A stretch of DNA of 39,587 nucleotides. It comes from a virus. Made by a program: the position numbers and the translations under genes. Shown here piece after piece: positions 352 to 23,840 of the stretch. Under the pieces are notes generated by a model. It was given only the letters and a program-made list of their open reading frames with translations. It ran no database searches and had not been told where the DNA came from. Numbering within the stretch: position 1 is the first letter of the stretch; every line of letters starts with the position of its first letter. The stretch spans positions 1-39,587 of IMG/VR virus record IMGVR_UViG_3300047318_000136; one strand, 5' to 3'.

Positions 352-666
352 CTTAAAAGATTTCCGATGGGAGGCCCTTATAGGGTACTCCCTTTATTTA
401 TTCGGCAAGCGCAGCGGCATGAAGATGTTCCGCAAGTTCATGACCGGACACTTCCCTTACTTAGCCGACGAAAACGAGGACTGGCGCAGATGGGCGACAA
501 ACCAAATCGAATTGTTAGGTGGTCGAAAATGGCAGCCGACGAAGCAGTATGGGCGTATGAAACGATCTGCGAGAGTGGGTCAGAGGAACTCAACTACATC
601 ATTGACATTATCACAGGGGGCAATCGCCCCGGAAAGGCGGTACCCGATGAAGACAGTCGTACTTGA
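299..666 (+). CDS. hypothetical protein upstream of amidase, reading frame apparently broken near 526-529
   Basis: A good ribosome site (GGAGGTGG at 282-289) precedes ATG 299. The first 77 codons look like a real protein (MWGAADTIYDLIYFVLRNL..., aromatic and basic). In the same frame the sequence then turns into poor S/T/Q/R-rich residues and runs without a stop into the amidase. In the next frame, from ATG 529, a sensible sequence continues (MAADEAVWAYETICESG...) and stops at 666. Adding one A to the AAAA run at 526-529 joins the two parts into one 122-residue protein whose end overlaps the amidase start by 20 bases. Alternatively, 529-666 is a separate 45-residue gene using the AGGTGG at 517-522 as its ribosome site. 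Function unknown. Confidence 0.4.
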
Positions 667-1504
667 TGCCGGGCATGGCAAGAAAGACTCAGGCGCCGTA
701 GGAGCAACGAAGAAGCTTGAGAAGGACTTTAATCTCGCAATGGTCCTGAAGGTCAATGAGTTGCTGAAGAAGAACCCTGAGTTGCAAGTGATCCTCACGC
801 GATCAACAGACGTATTTGTGGAGCTTGTTGACCGCGCCAAGGTGGCAAATAAGGCTGGGGCAGCAGTGTTCCTGTCCATACACGCCAACTCTGGAGACAT
901 CCTCTCAAAAGGATCAGAGACGCTATATTCAAAAGATATCGACAAACCATTTGCGACGATCATCCATAAGTATCTGATGGCAACAACCGGACTGACCGAC
1001 CGTAAGTGCAAGTATCAGAACCTTTCTGTATGCCGCAACACGACTATGCCAGCGTGCCTGATCGAGCCGGGATTCTTGAGCAACCCGGCAGAGGAAGAAT
1101 TACTTTTTAATGAAGAGTTTCAAAATCGGCTTGCATTGGCGATGGCACAAGGAGTTTGCGAGTACCTGGGAGTTAAGTACGGTGTGAGATCTACGCCGGC
1201 CGGAACATATCCGGTAGATGTGCTGCTGAACGATGTGCCGTACGAGGGACTGCTGATCGAGGGTAAGAGCTGGGTCCCGGCTAAAGCAGTCCTGAACGCC
1301 CTGGGTGCTCGCTGGTCCTATGCGCTGCGCAGTATCTATGTGGGCGACACGAAGGTTGATACGAAGATATATGACGGCACCAGCTACATTAAAGGGACTG
1401 ACCTACGGGACCTCGGCGTAGTCCGTAGCGTGTTTCTCGACCCGGATGCCGTCAACACCAAACGAGTGTTAATCTATCAAAAGGAGAGTGTGACAAATGA
1501 ATGA
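647..1504 (+). CDS. endolysin: N-acetylmuramoyl-L-alanine amidase (Amidase_3) with C-terminal stalk domain
   Basis: This zinc amidase cuts the amide bond between MurNAc and the stem peptide to lyse the host. Counted from ATG 647 (285 aa), residues 1-180 are Amidase_3. The zinc ligands are His10 (LDAGHG), Glu25 and His79 (LSIHAN), and the catalytic Glu is 140 (LIEPGFLSN). Residues about 190-280 match the copper amine oxidase N-terminal-like (stalk) domain common in Paenibacillaceae surface proteins (GKSWVPAKAVLNALG), probably the wall-binding part. I chose ATG 647 because the family starts with the MKTVVLDAGHG strand; an in-frame extension back to 299 looks artefactual. There is no signal peptide, so export depends on the holin that follows and overlaps its stop codon. 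Confidence 0.93.
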   Translation: MKTVVLDAGHGKKDSGAVGATKKLEKDFNLAMVLKVNELLKKNPELQVILTRSTDVFVELVDRAKVANKAGAAVFLSIHANSGDILSKGSETLYSKDIDKPFATIIHKYLMATTGLTDRKCKYQNLSVCRNTTMPACLIEPGFLSNPAEEELLFNEEFQNRLALAMAQGVCEYLGVKYGVRSTPAGTYPVDVLLNDVPYEGLLIEGKSWVPAKAVLNALGARWSYALRSIYVGDTKVDTKIYDGTSYIKGTDLRDLGVVRSVFLDPDAVNTKRVLIYQKESVTNE

Positions 1505-2074: not shown

Positions 2075-3386
2075 TCGGGTCTCTATTGATCGTATTTTTG
2101 AGCAAATCACTGTACTTTACTACAGCATCTTTCTTTTTTAATTTGGTGGTGTGCAGGTAGACGCGTTTTGTCATTTCGTCGCCTGCATGACCCAACATCT
2201 CCATGATCTGTTCCAGACTAACGCCAGCCGCGGCCATCAATGAAGTGAATGTATGTCTCAATGAATGCGGTGACAGATCTTTGTTTAAACCTGAGAGAAG
2301 CAATATTCGCTTCATTCTTTGGTTAATAATAGCCTCAGGAATCGGATATCCAATATACCTACCCACGGTCTGACCGAATATGAACCCTTGGTCATGGTGG
2401 AAGCTGCTCGATGTTTTAAGTACATTGTGTTGCTCAATTAATCTTAACATCATTATAGTAATCTCTGGATCAATGTCCAACTCACGAATAGACGAGGTTG
2501 TCTTAGGAGGACCTAATTCATATTTTGTATAATTGTTGTAATTAACGTAGTTCTTAATAATTTTTATCTTATTCAATTCAGAATTGATTGCAACCTCCTG
2601 AAGCGCTTCTAGTTCACCAATCCGTATGCCGCTATAGGCTAATGTGGTGAATATTTCATAGTCTAGCGGTCTGCCATGTAAGTATGCGGTATCTAGGAAA
2701 ACAAGAAGTTCGTCACGTTCTAAAAATTCAGGGAGTTCTTCCCAATTCTCAATTTCTTCGACCGTTTGGTAATCTTGAGGCACATGAGCGCCTTTGGCCG
2801 GGTTTTCTTCTAAAAGTTTATGCTTAACGCCAAACTGGAATATCATCTTTGCAGTCGTATGTGTGCCGGTTAAAGTCTTTGTAGTGAATTTCTTTTTATG
2901 TTTTTCATGAGTGCCATCTTTCATTCGCTGTAGGGCATCCTGATATTCATTGTGCGTGATTTCGCGAGCTGGTTTATCGAAACATGCAGCGATTCTATTT
3001 TTATCATGGATTTTGTTCTTTAGAGTATTTGAGCGTTTTCGTTTCCCCGTAGTTTTATATACTTCAAACCATTTATCACTCAGATCCTCAAAGCTAATGT
3101 TAATCCGTTCTTCTTCCTTTTGCTGTTCTTCGAGTTTACGCTGTTCCTCGGCCTCTCTACGGGCTACATCTTCCGGCAGGGTATTAGTTCTGTACTGCTC
3201 CATCATGATGGCTGCTGCGGCCTCTGCGTCGTCCTTGGTATCAAACCCGCCTCGCTTCTTCTGATTCCGGCTGCCGTCAGGCTTCTTGCCCAGATCCAGT
3301 ATAAAGGACCATTTAGCACCGCACTTACACTTTTTCTTCTGTAGACCAGGGCACTCGCAATGAGGCTTATAGTAATGTCCTTTCAC
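2043..3386 (-). CDS. int: tyrosine-family integrase
   Basis: Phage integrase of 447 aa acting at attP/attB. The N-terminus has a CxC-x7-CxC cluster (residues 10-22), probably a zinc knuckle, merged with the arm-binding domain. A charged helical linker follows (about 55-97), then the SAM-like core-binding domain (about 98-185) and the catalytic domain (about 220-435). Catalytic residues are visible: Arg255 (SGIRIGEL), Lys295, His374 and Arg377 (HSLRHT), His400 (LGHAG) and Tyr410 (VYLHTT). I chose GTG 3386 because AAGGAG lies 8 bases upstream; the in-frame GTG at 3395 would sit inside that ribosome site. Its 3' end overlaps two repeats of the putative attP. Confidence 0.95.
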   Translation of the reverse strand: MKGHYYKPHCECPGLQKKKCKCGAKWSFILDLGKKPDGSRNQKKRGGFDTKDDAEAAAAIMMEQYRTNTLPEDVARREAEEQRKLEEQQKEEERINISFEDLSDKWFEVYKTTGKRKRSNTLKNKIHDKNRIAACFDKPAREITHNEYQDALQRMKDGTHEKHKKKFTTKTLTGTHTTAKMIFQFGVKHKLLEENPAKGAHVPQDYQTVEEIENWEELPEFLERDELLVFLDTAYLHGRPLDYEIFTTLAYSGIRIGELEALQEVAINSELNKIKIIKNYVNYNNYTKYELGPPKTTSSIRELDIDPEITIMMLRLIEQHNVLKTSSSFHHDQGFIFGQTVGRYIGYPIPEAIINQRMKRILLLSGLNKDLSPHSLRHTFTSLMAAAGVSLEQIMEMLGHAGDEMTKRVYLHTTKLKKKDAVVKYSDLLKNTINRDPNVTQMLPEPT

Positions 3387-3473: not shown

Positions 3474-4112
3474 CTATTCAAGATTCAATACGTTTAATGG
3501 GTCGTTCCATCCAACAACAAGGTTATTTTCAAAGTTAACAGATGCTGATTTAAAAAACCATGTGTTTCCGTTATTCATTATCGAACTTGGCGTCCCCATT
3601 GATAGTTTAACCGTCTCCTTAGAGTCTCCTAGACCAAACGTTGCAGATGATTCGGCCAACTCTTTTCTTCTCCTCTCAAGATATTCTTCTCCTGTTTCAG
3701 TATTTGTGCTTGCATCCCTATTTCTAACATCTGCGAAAACTGACTCTGTGGATTGTTTTTCAACTGCACTGTTAGCTTCTGCGATAACTTTGTTTTTAGC
3801 TTCTTCTAGTTTATCTGTAATTTCATTTAGCACATCTTGCTTAATTTTGTTACTTTGAATATCTAAAGTCGCTTCGATTCCTTCTTTATATTCAATGAAC
3901 TTGCTCATTTGAGCGTCAACATCGCCAACGGTCGACCATGTATCTCCGTAAAGAACTTTTGTCTCACCTGTAATTCTGTTTATCATTACTGGATATTTTT
4001 GAACTAATTTATCATACCTATATAATCCAGGGTACACGAATATACCAAAAGCGCATATGCAGATTAGGACGAAAATATATTTTATTCCTTTTCTCAAATA
4101 ATTTTTCCACAT
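3474..4112 (-). CDS. single-pass membrane protein with BamE/SmpA-like C-terminus
   Basis: 212 aa. A basic N-terminus (MWKNYLRKGIKY) is followed by one membrane helix (about residues 11-30), an extracytoplasmic helical region (about 60-150) and a C-terminal segment with the pattern GLGDSKETVKLSMGTPSSI...W.F..., which resembles BamE/SmpA-type small domains. It was read from ATG 4112 because GAAGGGG lies 7 bases upstream; the longer TTG start at 4133 lacks a ribosome site. It is transcribed alone from its own promoter in the lysogeny region, so it is probably expressed in the lysogen. A superinfection-exclusion or conversion role is an inference from position and topology only. Confidence 0.7.
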   Translation of the reverse strand: MWKNYLRKGIKYIFVLICICAFGIFVYPGLYRYDKLVQKYPVMINRITGETKVLYGDTWSTVGDVDAQMSKFIEYKEGIEATLDIQSNKIKQDVLNEITDKLEEAKNKVIAEANSAVEKQSTESVFADVRNRDASTNTETGEEYLERRRKELAESSATFGLGDSKETVKLSMGTPSSIMNNGNTWFFKSASVNFENNLVVGWNDPLNVLNLE

Positions 4113-4151
4113 ATAATATTCCCCTTCACTCAATGTTATTTCCCAACACTT

Positions 4152-4181
4152 ACTATAATTTACTTGTCATATTTTGAGCAA
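4152..4181 (-). promoter_or_regulatory. promoter of the membrane-protein gene
   Basis: On the minus strand TTGCTC (complement of 4176-4181) and TATAGT (complement of 4152-4157) are separated by 18 bases, about 40 bases upstream of the chosen start at 4112. Confidence 0.5.
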
Positions 4182-20633: not shown

Positions 20634-21047
20634 ATGAACTGGAAGGAGTCATACAACGACATATGCGCCGAATTGCAGATGATGAAACTGAGGGAGTTCG
20701 AACTTCGGAAGCAATGGGAGAATGCCCACAAAGCGGTTAAGGAAGGCAAACTACCTTCAAGCATCTACTGCCATATAGATCTGGTAAAGGGACTGGAACT
20801 GTATGATGCAGCTGCTGAAAAGCTAAACGAATGTGTGGATGAAGTAATGAGGCTGGAAGGCGTAAAGCGTCAGTATGAATCATACATGGATCAATTCACC
20901 GGACTGAACAATGTAATATTGTCCAAACGTGCGCAGGGCTACAGCCTGAAAGAAATTGCTGCACATACGGGACATTCCTACGGATATATCCGAAATAAAA
21001 TGGCTCAACATGACAAAGTAGTGACAACAAGTGCAAAGGCATCGTGA
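20634..21047 (+). CDS. HTH regulator, candidate late-gene activator, 137 aa
   Basis: The C-terminus carries a sigma-region-4-like HTH (VILSKRAQGYSLKEIAAHTG HSYGYIRNKMA in two pieces). The N-terminal 100 residues are helical with a heptad-like pattern. Proteins of this layout (ArpU or sigma-like phage proteins) stand just before the terminase genes of Gram-positive phages and switch on late transcription. GGGGGG lies upstream of ATG 20634. The activator role is inferred from position and HTH only. Confidence 0.65.
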   Translation: MNWKESYNDICAELQMMKLREFELRKQWENAHKAVKEGKLPSSIYCHIDLVKGLELYDAAAEKLNECVDEVMRLEGVKRQYESYMDQFTGLNNVILSKRAQGYSLKEIAAHTGHSYGYIRNKMAQHDKVVTTSAKAS

Positions 21048-21063
21048 TATTATAGTAGTATGA

Positions 21064-21109
21064 GGAATTGGCGATCAGTGACCCGGGGACTGCCCCTATC
21101 GCCGATTCC
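21064..21109 (+). ncRNA. long hairpin upstream of the tRNA
   Basis: GGAAT (21064-21068) pairs with ATTCC (21105-21109), GGCGAT (21070-21075) with ATCGCC (21098-21103) and GGGG (21085-21088) with CCCC (21093-21096): 15 base pairs with a bulge. An alternative inner pairing CAGT/ACTG is possible. No coding potential that I believe. It may be a processing or regulatory structure of the tRNA transcript. Confidence 0.5.
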
Positions 21110-21140
21110 CATCACTTGGATGATTCACTTCCACACCTTG

Positions 21141-21160
21141 GCGCTGGCTTCGGCTGGCGC
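21141..21160 (+). ncRNA. UUCG-capped hairpin directly before the tRNA
   Basis: GCGCTGGC pairs with GCTGGCGC around a TTCG tetraloop closed by C-G, with two G-U pairs in the stem. It ends 8 bases before the tRNA 5' end. The few T (TACATTTT) make it a poor terminator; a 5'-processing signal is an alternative. Confidence 0.5.
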
Positions 21161-21168
21161 TACATTTT

Positions 21169-21240
21169 GCTCCATTAACTCAGTGGCAGAGAAGGCGCCT
21201 TATATGCGTCTAGTCGGTGGTTCGATTCCATCATGGAGTA
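21169..21240 (+). tRNA. tRNA-Ile (anticodon UAU)
   Basis: All four arms fold. Acceptor GCTCCAT/ATGGAGT with a G-U first pair; D arm ACTC/GAGA with an AGTGGCA loop (one A-A mismatch); anticodon stem GGCGC/GCGTC with loop CTTATAT (anticodon 21201-21203 reads UAU); 5-base variable loop; T arm GGTGG/CCATC with loop TTCGATT; discriminator A at 21240. No CCA is encoded. It would decode AUA directly, which hosts of this type usually read with lysidine-modified tRNA-Ile(CAU). Confidence 0.85.
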
Positions 21241-21438
21241 CTCTTTTAGCAACAACCACACACCGCGAAAGGGACAGACTCACCCCTAGTGGTGGTGTGG
21301 ATATGCATATATGATTGGGACTGTGCTTACACGGGCCTAATTAAACACAGCAGCCCCAGCGGACCGGGGATATGAGGAAGGCAAAGTTAGGACCGTCCCT
21401 ATGCTGGCTCGGGTTATCCAGTACAGAGTATCAGAGAG
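21241..21438 (+). other. structured non-coding stretch after the tRNA
   Basis: No convincing ORF. Several dyads can form: CCACAC/GTGTGG (21256-21261 with 21295-21300), CTGTG/CACAG (21321-21325 with 21346-21350) and CCAGC/GCTGG (21356-21360 with 21403-21407). It precedes a clear terminator, so it belongs to the tRNA-bearing transcript. Confidence 0.4.
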
Positions 21439-21468
21439 AGTGGCGGAAACGCTGCTCTTTTTGTTTTA
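21439..21468 (+). terminator. Rho-independent terminator before the late genes
   Basis: AGTGGCG (21439-21445) pairs with CGCTGCT (21450-21456) around a GAAA tetraloop, followed by CTTTTTGTTTT. It separates the early/middle transcript with the tRNA from the terminase operon. 21469-21580 shows no clear sigma-A promoter. Confidence 0.8.
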
Positions 21469-21580
21469 TCTCTGCATCGAGTCAGACACATGAAAGCACG
21501 TAAATAAGTTGTTACAGGAATAGCAAGTCTCCGAAAATACGGGGGTTATATCGTAAATACAGCAGAAAGATGGTGAAGTG

Positions 21581-21922
21581 ATGGAAAGTTTATATCTACA
21601 CATTGGAAATGGCGGGGTTAGTTTTATAGCCGGGACGGATTCAGAGGGCAGACTAGCATTACAGATTGAAGCTACACACATGGGTAACACCACCAACAGC
21701 ATGAAGATTTTAACAAACGCAGAGAGTATGACAAAGATCGGGCGAATGTTAATTGAAGCAGCTAAAGAACAACATGAGGTGTATTGCTGCGCAGCCAAGT
21801 GGGATGATCCAGAAAAGGCGCCACAACCTATGAGCAGCGAGCTTACAATATGCGGAGATTCGGAAACGGTCCAACACAAAGGATGGTCTGGCATTCCTTC
21901 GCACAATATGGGGATAGATTAG
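21581..21922 (+). CDS. hypothetical protein before terminase, 113 aa
   Basis: ATG 21581 is preferred over the adjacent GTG 21578. The N-terminus forms a beta-rich segment (ESLYLHIGNGGVSFIAGTDS), followed by a helix (MTKIGRMLIEAAKEQHEVYC) and a loop-rich C-terminus. No family recognised. First gene of the late block, 15 bases before the terminase small subunit, so probably packaging related or regulatory. Confidence 0.55.
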   Translation: MESLYLHIGNGGVSFIAGTDSEGRLALQIEATHMGNTTNSMKILTNAESMTKIGRMLIEAAKEQHEVYCCAAKWDDPEKAPQPMSSELTICGDSETVQHKGWSGIPSHNMGID

Positions 21923-21937
21923 AGGGAGGCGAACACA

Positions 21938-22378
21938 ATGGCAGGAGGCAGACCAAGCAAATACTTCACAAATGTTGAACCGAAACTCCTGCTCATTGAG
22001 GCTTGGGCTAGAGATGGTGTGACAGATGAACAGATAGCAGAAAACCTCGAAGTTGCTTACTCGACATTCAGGACATATAAAGATGACTATCCGGCATTGT
22101 CGGCGGCCTTAAAAAACGGCAAGGAGATAATTGATACGATGGTCGAGAATGCCTTGCTTAAGGCGGCTCTTGGTTATGAGTATGAAGAGGTAAAGGAATC
22201 TGCTGATGGATTTGAGAGATCCACAAAGGTGGCTCACCCCAACACAACGGCGCTTATATTCTGGCTTAAGAATCGCAAGCCGCAGCAGTGGCGTGACAAA
22301 CAAGAGATTGGCCTAGAAGGTGACCTAAACATCAAAGTGTCATTGCCGAAAGGATTGACTGAAGATGCCGACGATTAA
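21938..22378 (+). CDS. terminase small subunit, 146 aa
   Basis: DNA-recognition subunit of the packaging motor. The N-terminal HTH (DGVTDEQIAENLEVAYSTFR TYKDDYPAL in two pieces) is followed by the conserved KNGKEIIDTMVENALLKAAL and AHPNTTALIFWLKNRKPQQW blocks typical of Gram-positive phage TerS. GGGAGG lies upstream of ATG 21938. It overlaps terL by 14 bases. It binds the pac site, which often lies in or near this gene. Confidence 0.9.
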   Translation: MAGGRPSKYFTNVEPKLLLIEAWARDGVTDEQIAENLEVAYSTFRTYKDDYPALSAALKNGKEIIDTMVENALLKAALGYEYEEVKESADGFERSTKVAHPNTTALIFWLKNRKPQQWRDKQEIGLEGDLNIKVSLPKGLTEDADD

Positions 22379-23840
22379 CATCGACTTAACCGAGCTTCCG
22401 ACATTAACCAATGATCGGTTTTATCCACTTTACATGAATAAGGATAGATACTTGGTGCTGATGGGCGGCGGCGGTTCGGGTAAGTCGGTGTTTACGGCCC
22501 AGAAGATCATCTTCCGGCTGCTGACTGAACAGAAGCACCGTATCCTGGTACTACGTAAGGTAGCGAAGACACTGCGGGAATCGGTGTTTATGGAGCTTAA
22601 GAACGCGATATACCGCTGGGGCCTAGAGAAGCTATTCAAGATCCCGAAGGGTACAAGTTCAGAACTACACATCAGCTGCATTAATGGCAACGAGATCCTG
22701 TTTGCTGGGCTGGATAATGTAGAAAAGCTTAAGTCAATTTCAGGTGTGACTAGCGTGTGGATGGAGGAAGCCAGCGAGTGTTCGCCGGAGGACTTCAGGC
22801 AGCTGGACATCCGGTTACGTGGTAAGCACATCAACTACAAACAGACGATGATTACCTTCAACCCAATTGACATCAACCATTGGCTCAAGAAAGAGTTCTT
22901 CGATAACCCCAAGCCAAACGCCACGACGATTCATAGCACATACAAGCACAATAAGTTCCTGGATGACGAGGCTATTAAGGTGCTGGAGGCGTTCAGAGAG
23001 ACGGACCCATACTTCTATCAGGTGTACGCGCTTGGTGAATGGGGAGTGCTTGGCAAAACCATATTCAACGCTCAGAAAGTCAGTGAGCGCATCTCATACC
23101 TTCGTGACCATGATCCATTGGTGCAGCGGGGGTATTTTGTTTATCAGAAAGATGCTGCAGATAAGATCATCGACAGCACCATTAAATGGATTGAGGACGA
23201 CACAGGGTATATCAAGCTATTTGAGCGACCACAACCGCAGACACCTTATGTAATCGGCGGTGACACGGCTGGAGACGGATCAGATAACTTTACAGGCCAA
23301 GTGATCAACAACGTCACAGGCAGGCAATCAGCCGTGTACAAGAACCAGTTTGACGAGGACTTGTACGCAGAGCAGATGTATTGCCTGGGTAGACATTACA
23401 ACTATGCACTGGAGAGCATTGAAACCAACTTCAGCAGCCATCCGGTCAAGGTGCTCAGCCGCCTGGGATATACGAATCAGTACATCCGAGAGCGAGAGGA
23501 TACATTCACCGGATCCATTACCAAGTCTTACGGCTTTCGTACAGATAAACTAACCAGGCCATCAGCCATTGCTGAGCTGGTGAAGATCGTACGTGAGTCG
23601 GTGAACCTTATCAACGATATCGACACGCTGAATGAGATGCTAACCTTTGTACGCAACGAGAAAGGCCGACCACAAGCACAGGAAGGAGCTCATGACGACT
23701 TGATCATGGCCCTTGCGATTGCTTATTACAGCCGAGGACAGCAAGACAGTAGCCTGCTTCAGAAGGCGATAGAAACACCTGTCACACCATTCCCATTCAG
23801 AACAGACGAACCCACCGGAGGCGATTATTTAGCATGGTAG
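22365..23840 (+). CDS. terL: terminase large subunit (Terminase_3, PBSX type), 491 aa
   Basis: ATP-driven packaging motor and nuclease. Walker A GGGGSGKS at 34-41, Walker B VWMEEA at 131-136 with catalytic Glu, coupling motif around TFNP (164-167). The C-terminal RNase H-like nuclease has acidic residues at Asp300 (GGDTAGDG), Glu353 (SIETN) and Asp444/445 (GAHDDLIMALAIAYY). Length and motif order match PBSX-like TerL proteins. Overlaps terS and the next small gene. Confidence 0.96.
   Translation: MPTINIDLTELPTLTNDRFYPLYMNKDRYLVLMGGGGSGKSVFTAQKIIFRLLTEQKHRILVLRKVAKTLRESVFMELKNAIYRWGLEKLFKIPKGTSSELHISCINGNEILFAGLDNVEKLKSISGVTSVWMEEASECSPEDFRQLDIRLRGKHINYKQTMITFNPIDINHWLKKEFFDNPKPNATTIHSTYKHNKFLDDEAIKVLEAFRETDPYFYQVYALGEWGVLGKTIFNAQKVSERISYLRDHDPLVQRGYFVYQKDAADKIIDSTIKWIEDDTGYIKLFERPQPQTPYVIGGDTAGDGSDNFTGQVINNVTGRQSAVYKNQFDEDLYAEQMYCLGRHYNYALESIETNFSSHPVKVLSRLGYTNQYIREREDTFTGSITKSYGFRTDKLTRPSAIAELVKIVRESVNLINDIDTLNEMLTFVRNEKGRPQAQEGAHDDLIMALAIAYYSRGQQDSSLLQKAIETPVTPFPFRTDEPTGGDYLAW

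Follow-up and report, generated by a model that had tools for sequence, protein, structure and literature searches.

What does a phage gain from a tRNA-Ile gene with the anticodon UAU when its host already has a way of reading AUA? PMC8007984, citing earlier surveys, lists Ile(UAU) as lacking in most bacteria and, by extension, in phages, and PMC8450103 reports 17 bacterial genomes in which UAU takes the place of CAU. A gene of this kind lies in the window, the whole stretch of 39,587 bases of viral DNA analysed here. The relatives of its large terminase subunit (TerL) found in genomes belong to Paenibacillus prophages, with 84–87% identity for the best three, so the host genus is presumably Paenibacillus. 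On balance, and judging from sequence comparison, the gene, an accessory insert in what is presumably the late-operon leader, probably encodes a working phage tRNA-Ile(UAU) that would read AUA independently of lysidine.

A tRNA gene under selection

ARAGORN, run on the whole window, calls a single tRNA in the 39,587 bases, a tRNA-Ile with the anticodon tat at 21169–21241 on the plus strand, and calls none in 100 first-order Markov shuffles of the window. Rfam RF00005 matches 21169–21240 over the full model (1–71) at 52.5 bits, above the gathering cut-off of 29, versus 64–65 bits in the copies of relatives. Read directly, the acceptor stem GCUCCAU/AUGGAGU is paired at 7/7 positions, including G1–U72, the D-stem ACUC/GAGA at 3/4, with a single A–A mismatch, and the anticodon stem GGCGC/GCGUC at 5/5, with one G–U pair. 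The seven-base anticodon loop, CUUAUAU, carries UAU at positions 34–36 together with U33 and A37, as in a UAU tRNA; the variable loop is UAGUC, the T-arm (GGUGG-UUCGAUU-CCAUC) is paired at 5/5, and the acceptor end carries A73. The isoleucine identity elements A73, C4–G69, U12–A23, C29–G41, and A37, which are those of E. coli whereas the host enzyme appears to be an IleRS2, are all present; position 38 is U, and A38 is a feature of E. coli tRNA-Ile. The stem-pair and t6A37 determinants of isoleucine identity are reviewed in PMC9976931, where the D-stem pair is printed as U12–G23.

Folded by itself, the strand has a minimum-free-energy structure that lacks the D-stem, with a z of only −1.73, and covariation across relatives is stronger evidence for a tRNA than such a single-strand fold. 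A search with the leader as the sole bait gave 17 viral contigs, L337 and L348 among them, and the corresponding slot of these two holds a diverged tRNA-Ile(UAU) gene. A tRNA-based search added L468, L469, and L472, which have the same slot but a different 5′ leader upstream, and L470 and L471, in which the gene stands in other contexts. Across the seven distinct tRNA sequences, 98.6% of the cells are paired and seven pairs have changed on both sides; shuffles gave 2.9 double-change pairs, with 0/500 matching the real alignment, and slid controls were 32–53% paired. Because these stem changes in the diverged copies are compensatory, selection acts to maintain the gene as a tRNA, even though the window copy has lost a D-stem pair (A–A) that is kept in the other six distinct sequences. 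The search pattern fixed the loop in L468–L472 but left it free in L337 and L348, so the evidence for a constant UAU comes from three sequences found independently; the diverged tRNAs of L337 and L348 share with the window the CUUAUAU loop, C4–G69, U12–A23, C29–G41, A37, and A73. The agreement of ARAGORN and Rfam, the empty shuffles, and the compensatory changes in relatives together bear out an earlier note on this DNA, which had claimed a genuine UAU tRNA-Ile gene.

That note had also called the anticodon rare, which holds for the host group, with the UAU pattern in 0/76 Paenibacillus-group genomes, but not for viruses. In viral contigs, the same strict pattern gave at least 120 matches, and ARAGORN called tRNA-Ile(tat) at 122 of the 123 UAU loci that comprise the matches listed and the loci from other searches. 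Among these loci, 47 are the sole tRNA in their stretch. At least 109 distinct tRNA-Ile(UAU) sequences occur in viral contigs, some of which may belong to eukaryotic viruses, where a UAU anticodon is normal. Ile(UAU), listed as missing, is hence predicted in at least 100 distinct viral sequences, and here it appears as a maintained, mobile module.

The probable late-operon leader and its variable slot

The tRNA lies between a promoter-like site and a terminator (Table 1), and, as the earlier note had described, it stands alone in a non-coding block ahead of the late genes, with no convincing gene in 21048–21577 and an ORF, terS, and terL next in line.

Table 1. Features of the leader region in the window, and tRNA-Leu-like elements in other viral contigs.
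Feature	Position	Strand	Basis or remark
137-aa protein, C-terminal helix-turn-helix, candidate late regulator	20634..21047	+	PHROG 10157 (unknown function), E 3.8e-7; position
Extended −10 promoter-like site TGATATTAT, no −35	21045..21053	+	conserved in relatives
5′ structured leader hairpin	21064..21109	+	inverted repeat; covariation
Second hairpin and T tract (CATTTT), terminator-like	21139..21162	+	tRNA inserted at its 3′ side
tRNA-Ile, anticodon UAU, CCA not encoded	21169..21240	+	ARAGORN, Rfam, covariation in relatives
Hairpin module CCACACACC...GGUGUGG	21249..21300	+	shared leader resumes here 3′ of the tRNA
Further conserved leader element	about 21345..21425	+	also in L339, L346, L348, L472
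Intrinsic terminator ahead of late genes	21432..21463	+	14-pair stem and T run
114-aa ORF	21578..21922	+	no family
Terminase small subunit (terS)	21938..22378	+	PHROG 309, 1.8e-54
Terminase large subunit (terL)	22365..23840	+	PHROG 3717, 3.1e-69
tRNA-Leu-like element, L336	7831-8035	−	
tRNA-Leu-like element, L337	4891-4999	−	
tRNA-Leu-like element, L337	4652-4789	−	
tRNA-Leu-like element, L345	7286-7362	+	
tRNA-Leu-like element, L350	2540-2650	+	

The gene of the 137-aa protein, which has a weak Pfam HTH_58 match under the cut-off of that family, ends in a stop that overlaps the extended −10-like site TGATATTAT. This site is kept as GTGATAT(T/A)AT in 17 viral contigs and is probably the late promoter; no site with both hexamers emerged from a sigma-70 scan. 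The RNA of the 5′ hairpin is genuinely structured, since 100% of its cells are paired in seven distinct leaders and five of its pairs carry double changes. The stem of the third hairpin is CCAUCC/GGAUGG or CCACCC/GGGUGG in other leaders, the terminator hairpin and its T run are retained in relatives, and the whole leader (21064–21463, with homologous leaders in 17 viral contigs) folds at a z of −4.3. We infer that the region is a late-operon leader, with promoter activity, termination, and any antitermination likewise presumed. Its layout has the conserved promoter and 5′ hairpin at one end, the conserved terminator at the other, and exchangeable modules of structured RNA in between, and it could be a candidate antitermination or packaging-related RNA.

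Among 16 related, syntenic viral records, the tRNA is present in two, only the near-identical ones, and is absent from the other close relatives. In the window the gene is flanked by GGCGCTACATTTT and CTCTTTTAGCAAC, and the empty site reads GGCGCTAC-TCTTTTAGCAAC in L005 and GGCGCTAC-ATTTTAGCAAC in L004, both of which lack the tRNA. The window is 98.7% identical to L005 over 21239–21315 and 91.5% identical over 21340–21487. A short ORF of about 45 aa fills the slot in L006 (about 4029–4152) and L024 (about 3661–3786). As relatives without the tRNA show either an empty site or this small ORF, the tRNA is an accessory insert and the slot is an accessory insertion site. No TerL related to that of the window was found in L469 and L472 (some of these records are fragments), which suggests that the leader and tRNA are passed between phages whose head modules differ.

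Several further observations concern the slot. L338 and L347 have the short ORF in this place too; its product (MDRFMDAYE.Y...) looks like a small protein of membrane type. L339 carries in the same slot (580–672, plus strand) a tRNA-like gene of 93–94 nt with an odd anticodon region, which ARAGORN calls “Phe aaa” and the Rfam tRNA model scores at 43 bits; it perhaps has a long variable arm or is an interrupted tRNA. A BLAST search of the tRNA-bearing 600-bp block against 50,697 phage records gave no match, and the tRNA-Ile genes of six similar-looking named phages were rejected as UAU counterparts, as all have GAU.

The same late leaders also hold tRNA-Leu-like elements, in L336, L337 (two), L345, and probably L005; the pattern recurs in at least 110 other viral contigs (L349–L467), and no such element lies within the window. 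The element has the D-arm GGCGGAAUAGGUAGACGC, a short or missing anticodon arm, and a long hypervariable middle, with the consensus GGUGGCGGAAUAGGUAGACGC ... CAUGYRAGGUGCAAAUCCUYRCC and the T-loop UGCAAAU instead of UUCRANY. In 27 sequences, 97.2% of the cells are paired and 107 are double-change cells. No Rfam family matches these elements at the gathering score, or in a permissive scan around one copy, and a terminase gene lies within the next few ORFs downstream in 6/10 of the loci checked. They could be an undescribed phage RNA family, one not found in the literature searched. Directly before the element of L350 stands a tRNA-like structure (2403–2478, plus strand) with a canonical T-arm and a weak tRNA-Sec match of 21 bits, and the two are possibly an array of tRNA-like modules. 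Elsewhere in the window, at 1700–2060, repeats of ATGTTAC and GGGTAACA that resemble attP arm sites separate the lysis genes from the integrase gene; the lysis genes and int are joined in the contig, as they would be in the genome of a virion or an excised phage. A seemingly gene-poor 3′ end of the window is actually one long ORF that runs off the end.

AUA decoding in the host and AUA use in the phage

The host type reads AUA through TilS and tRNA-Ile2(CAU), as the earlier note had assumed. TilS is present in 5/5 related Paenibacillus genomes, from which it follows that the host reads AUA with lysidine, and the CAU tRNA-Ile2 pattern is present in 21/21 host-group genomes, usually with one Ile2-like copy per genome. 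With TilS at 5/5 and CAU at 21/21, the phage gene does not replace tRNA-Ile2 in the sense of serving a host that lacks both.

The sole full IleRS in all five Paenibacillus genomes (L298–L302) is about 1,030 aa long and 31% identical to that of E. coli. A domain scan of one of these enzymes, that of L299, places PF19302 at the C-terminus and finds no PF06827 zinc finger, and the other four align with L299 at the C-terminus, without the CPRCW motif. The best PDB match of the host enzyme is 8c8v, an isoleucine–tRNA ligase that we take to be P. megaterium IleRS2, followed by the IleRS of T. thermophilus and eukaryotic cytoplasmic IleRS. By these comparisons, the host IleRS is classed as a eukaryote-like IleRS2. 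E. coli IleRS reportedly charges UAU poorly because of W905, which lies in its C-terminal zinc finger PF06827, and the replacement of W905 by Arg, as in M. mobile, is said to restore UAU charging. UAU-type tRNAs are charged by eukaryotic IleRS. As the host IleRS2 lacks the zinc finger that carries W905 in E. coli, charging of the UAU tRNA by this enzyme is plausible. The earlier note had proposed that the phage decodes AUA without lysidine, which needs a synthetase that accepts UAU; the type of the host enzyme makes this plausible, but does not show charging. The occurrence of UAU in eukaryotes is noted in a passage of PMC8007984. Misreading of AUG by U34 could be a risk.

AUA makes up 24.6% of the Ile codons in the annotated phage genes versus 9–13% in the host (about 56,000 host codons). 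In the core late genes (TerS, TerL, portal, major capsid protein, and endolysin), AUA accounts for 14/122 Ile codons (11.5%), versus 129/460 (28%) in the remaining phage genes (p 9e-5), and for 9/65 in the 1,318-aa-plus ORF that runs off the window end. In relatives without the tRNA, the share ranges from 10.7 to 25.8%, with L006 and L016 as rich in AUA as the window phage. The comparison of late genes with the host that the earlier note had put forward thus speaks against a simple supply of codons: since the core late genes are host-like and relatives lacking the tRNA are equally AUA-rich, the tRNA is not explained by the codon demand of the late genes downstream. This result therefore favours insurance or a non-decoding role over codon matching, the choice between the former two being one of interpretation.

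Competing explanations and known systems

If the gene is a functional AUA reader, RNase P and RNase Z would release the tRNA from the transcript of the late leader, CCA would be added to it, and the host IleRS2 would charge it with isoleucine; the charged tRNA would then read AUA without needing TilS. The likeliest benefit, and one more likely than codon matching, would be insurance, through an AUA reader that, late in infection, is independent of the host tRNA-Ile2(LAU) or of the modification of that tRNA; a broader contribution to AUA decoding in the AUA-rich accessory genes would be a secondary possibility. The main rival, rather unlikely in our estimate, takes the tRNA as a processing or shape module of the late leader, where cleavage by RNase P and RNase Z frees the late message from the 5′ leader or alters termination and the anticodon matters little. 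Such a role would suit a gene placed exactly behind the terminator-like hairpin and ahead of the conserved terminator, in a slot whose contents vary from another tRNA (L339) to a short ORF (L006, L024) or nothing (L004, L005), and in a type of leader that also holds tRNA-Leu-like structures uncalled by tRNA finders or Rfam models (L336, L337, L345). It does not account for a CUUAUAU loop that is constant while the stems diverge (L337 and L348, found without tRNA bait), and several leaders have no tRNA there, so the tRNA is not essential to the leader. Somewhat less probable is a redundant tRNA, expressed but poorly charged or nearly neutral, and carried by modular leader exchange. The presence of the gene in only 2/16 records of syntenic relatives, the missing codon-usage signature, and the slightly degraded D-stem of the window copy are consistent with this, and the tRNA-Ile(UAU) of L. 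plantarum, reportedly expressed but not charged, would be a precedent; however, neutral drift would not keep the cloverleaf by compensatory change in seven distinct diverged copies, and the host IleRS2 is without the domain that carries W905 in E. coli.

An escape from host defence, also proposed in the earlier note, in which the tRNA replaces host tRNA-Ile2 destroyed by an anticodon nuclease or a similar system, is improbable. By direct reading the anticodon differs at position 34, and the host tRNA-Ile2(CAU)-like genes are few, usually one, which makes tRNA-Ile2 a possible weak point; phage tRNAs have been proposed, among other roles, to counter defences that degrade tRNAs, as cited in PMC10865867. 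Complementation of a host tRNA broken by integration is very improbable, even though the phage has an integrase and an excerpt of PMC10865867 describes tRNA-dependent lysogeny with tRNA-Ile2-CAT in Gordonia phages. The L005 record, with a 76% identical integrase, does without the tRNA, the int-side region matched none of the 76 host genomes and no attB was found there (an uncontrolled negative), and the tRNA lies far from int, within the late operon, where it is presumably silent in the prophage. A broader proposal, as doubtful as the processing role, treats the late leader as a modular device made of RNA, with real tRNAs (repeatedly the UAU isoleucine tRNA) and tRNA-like structures as exchangeable parts; tRNA processing or shape, perhaps together with decoding, would control whether transcripts begun at the late promoter continue beyond the terminator into the terminase and head genes. 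If the tRNA is charged, it shows that an essential tRNA modification of the host can be circumvented by viruses, and UAU tRNAs are predicted to track hosts with IleRS2-type synthetases; if it is not, the fact that it is conserved suggests a function in the late leader other than decoding.

Among known systems, prophages of Latilactobacillus curvatus likewise carry tRNA-Ile genes, one of ten with UAU, and AUA is enriched in these phages versus their hosts, as described in part of PMC10688831; 7/10 of the genes have CAU, however, and neither a late-leader slot nor compensatory copies are described in that part. The phages with tRNA-dependent lysogeny, as portrayed in sections of PMC10865867, are temperate and combine a tRNA gene with an integrase, as here, but a link to integration is not supported in the present case. 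The redundant tRNA-Ile(UAU) of L. plantarum exists beside TilS and tRNA-Ile2(CAU) (Tomikawa 2018, as cited in a passage of PMC9976931). UAU thus stands beside a lysidine system there as it does here, a likeness by description rather than by sequence, and the synthetase of L. plantarum is expected to be of another type. The tRNA-Ile3(UAU) of Mycoplasma, Bifidobacterium, and Neorickettsia (PMC8450103, PMC4013482) is likewise a UAU tRNA-Ile that reads AUA without lysidine. In contrast to these bacteria, in which tRNA-Ile3(UAU) replaces the cellular tRNA-Ile2(CAU) and, in M. mobile, TilS is missing as well, the gene described here is an accessory phage gene, and the host type keeps both.
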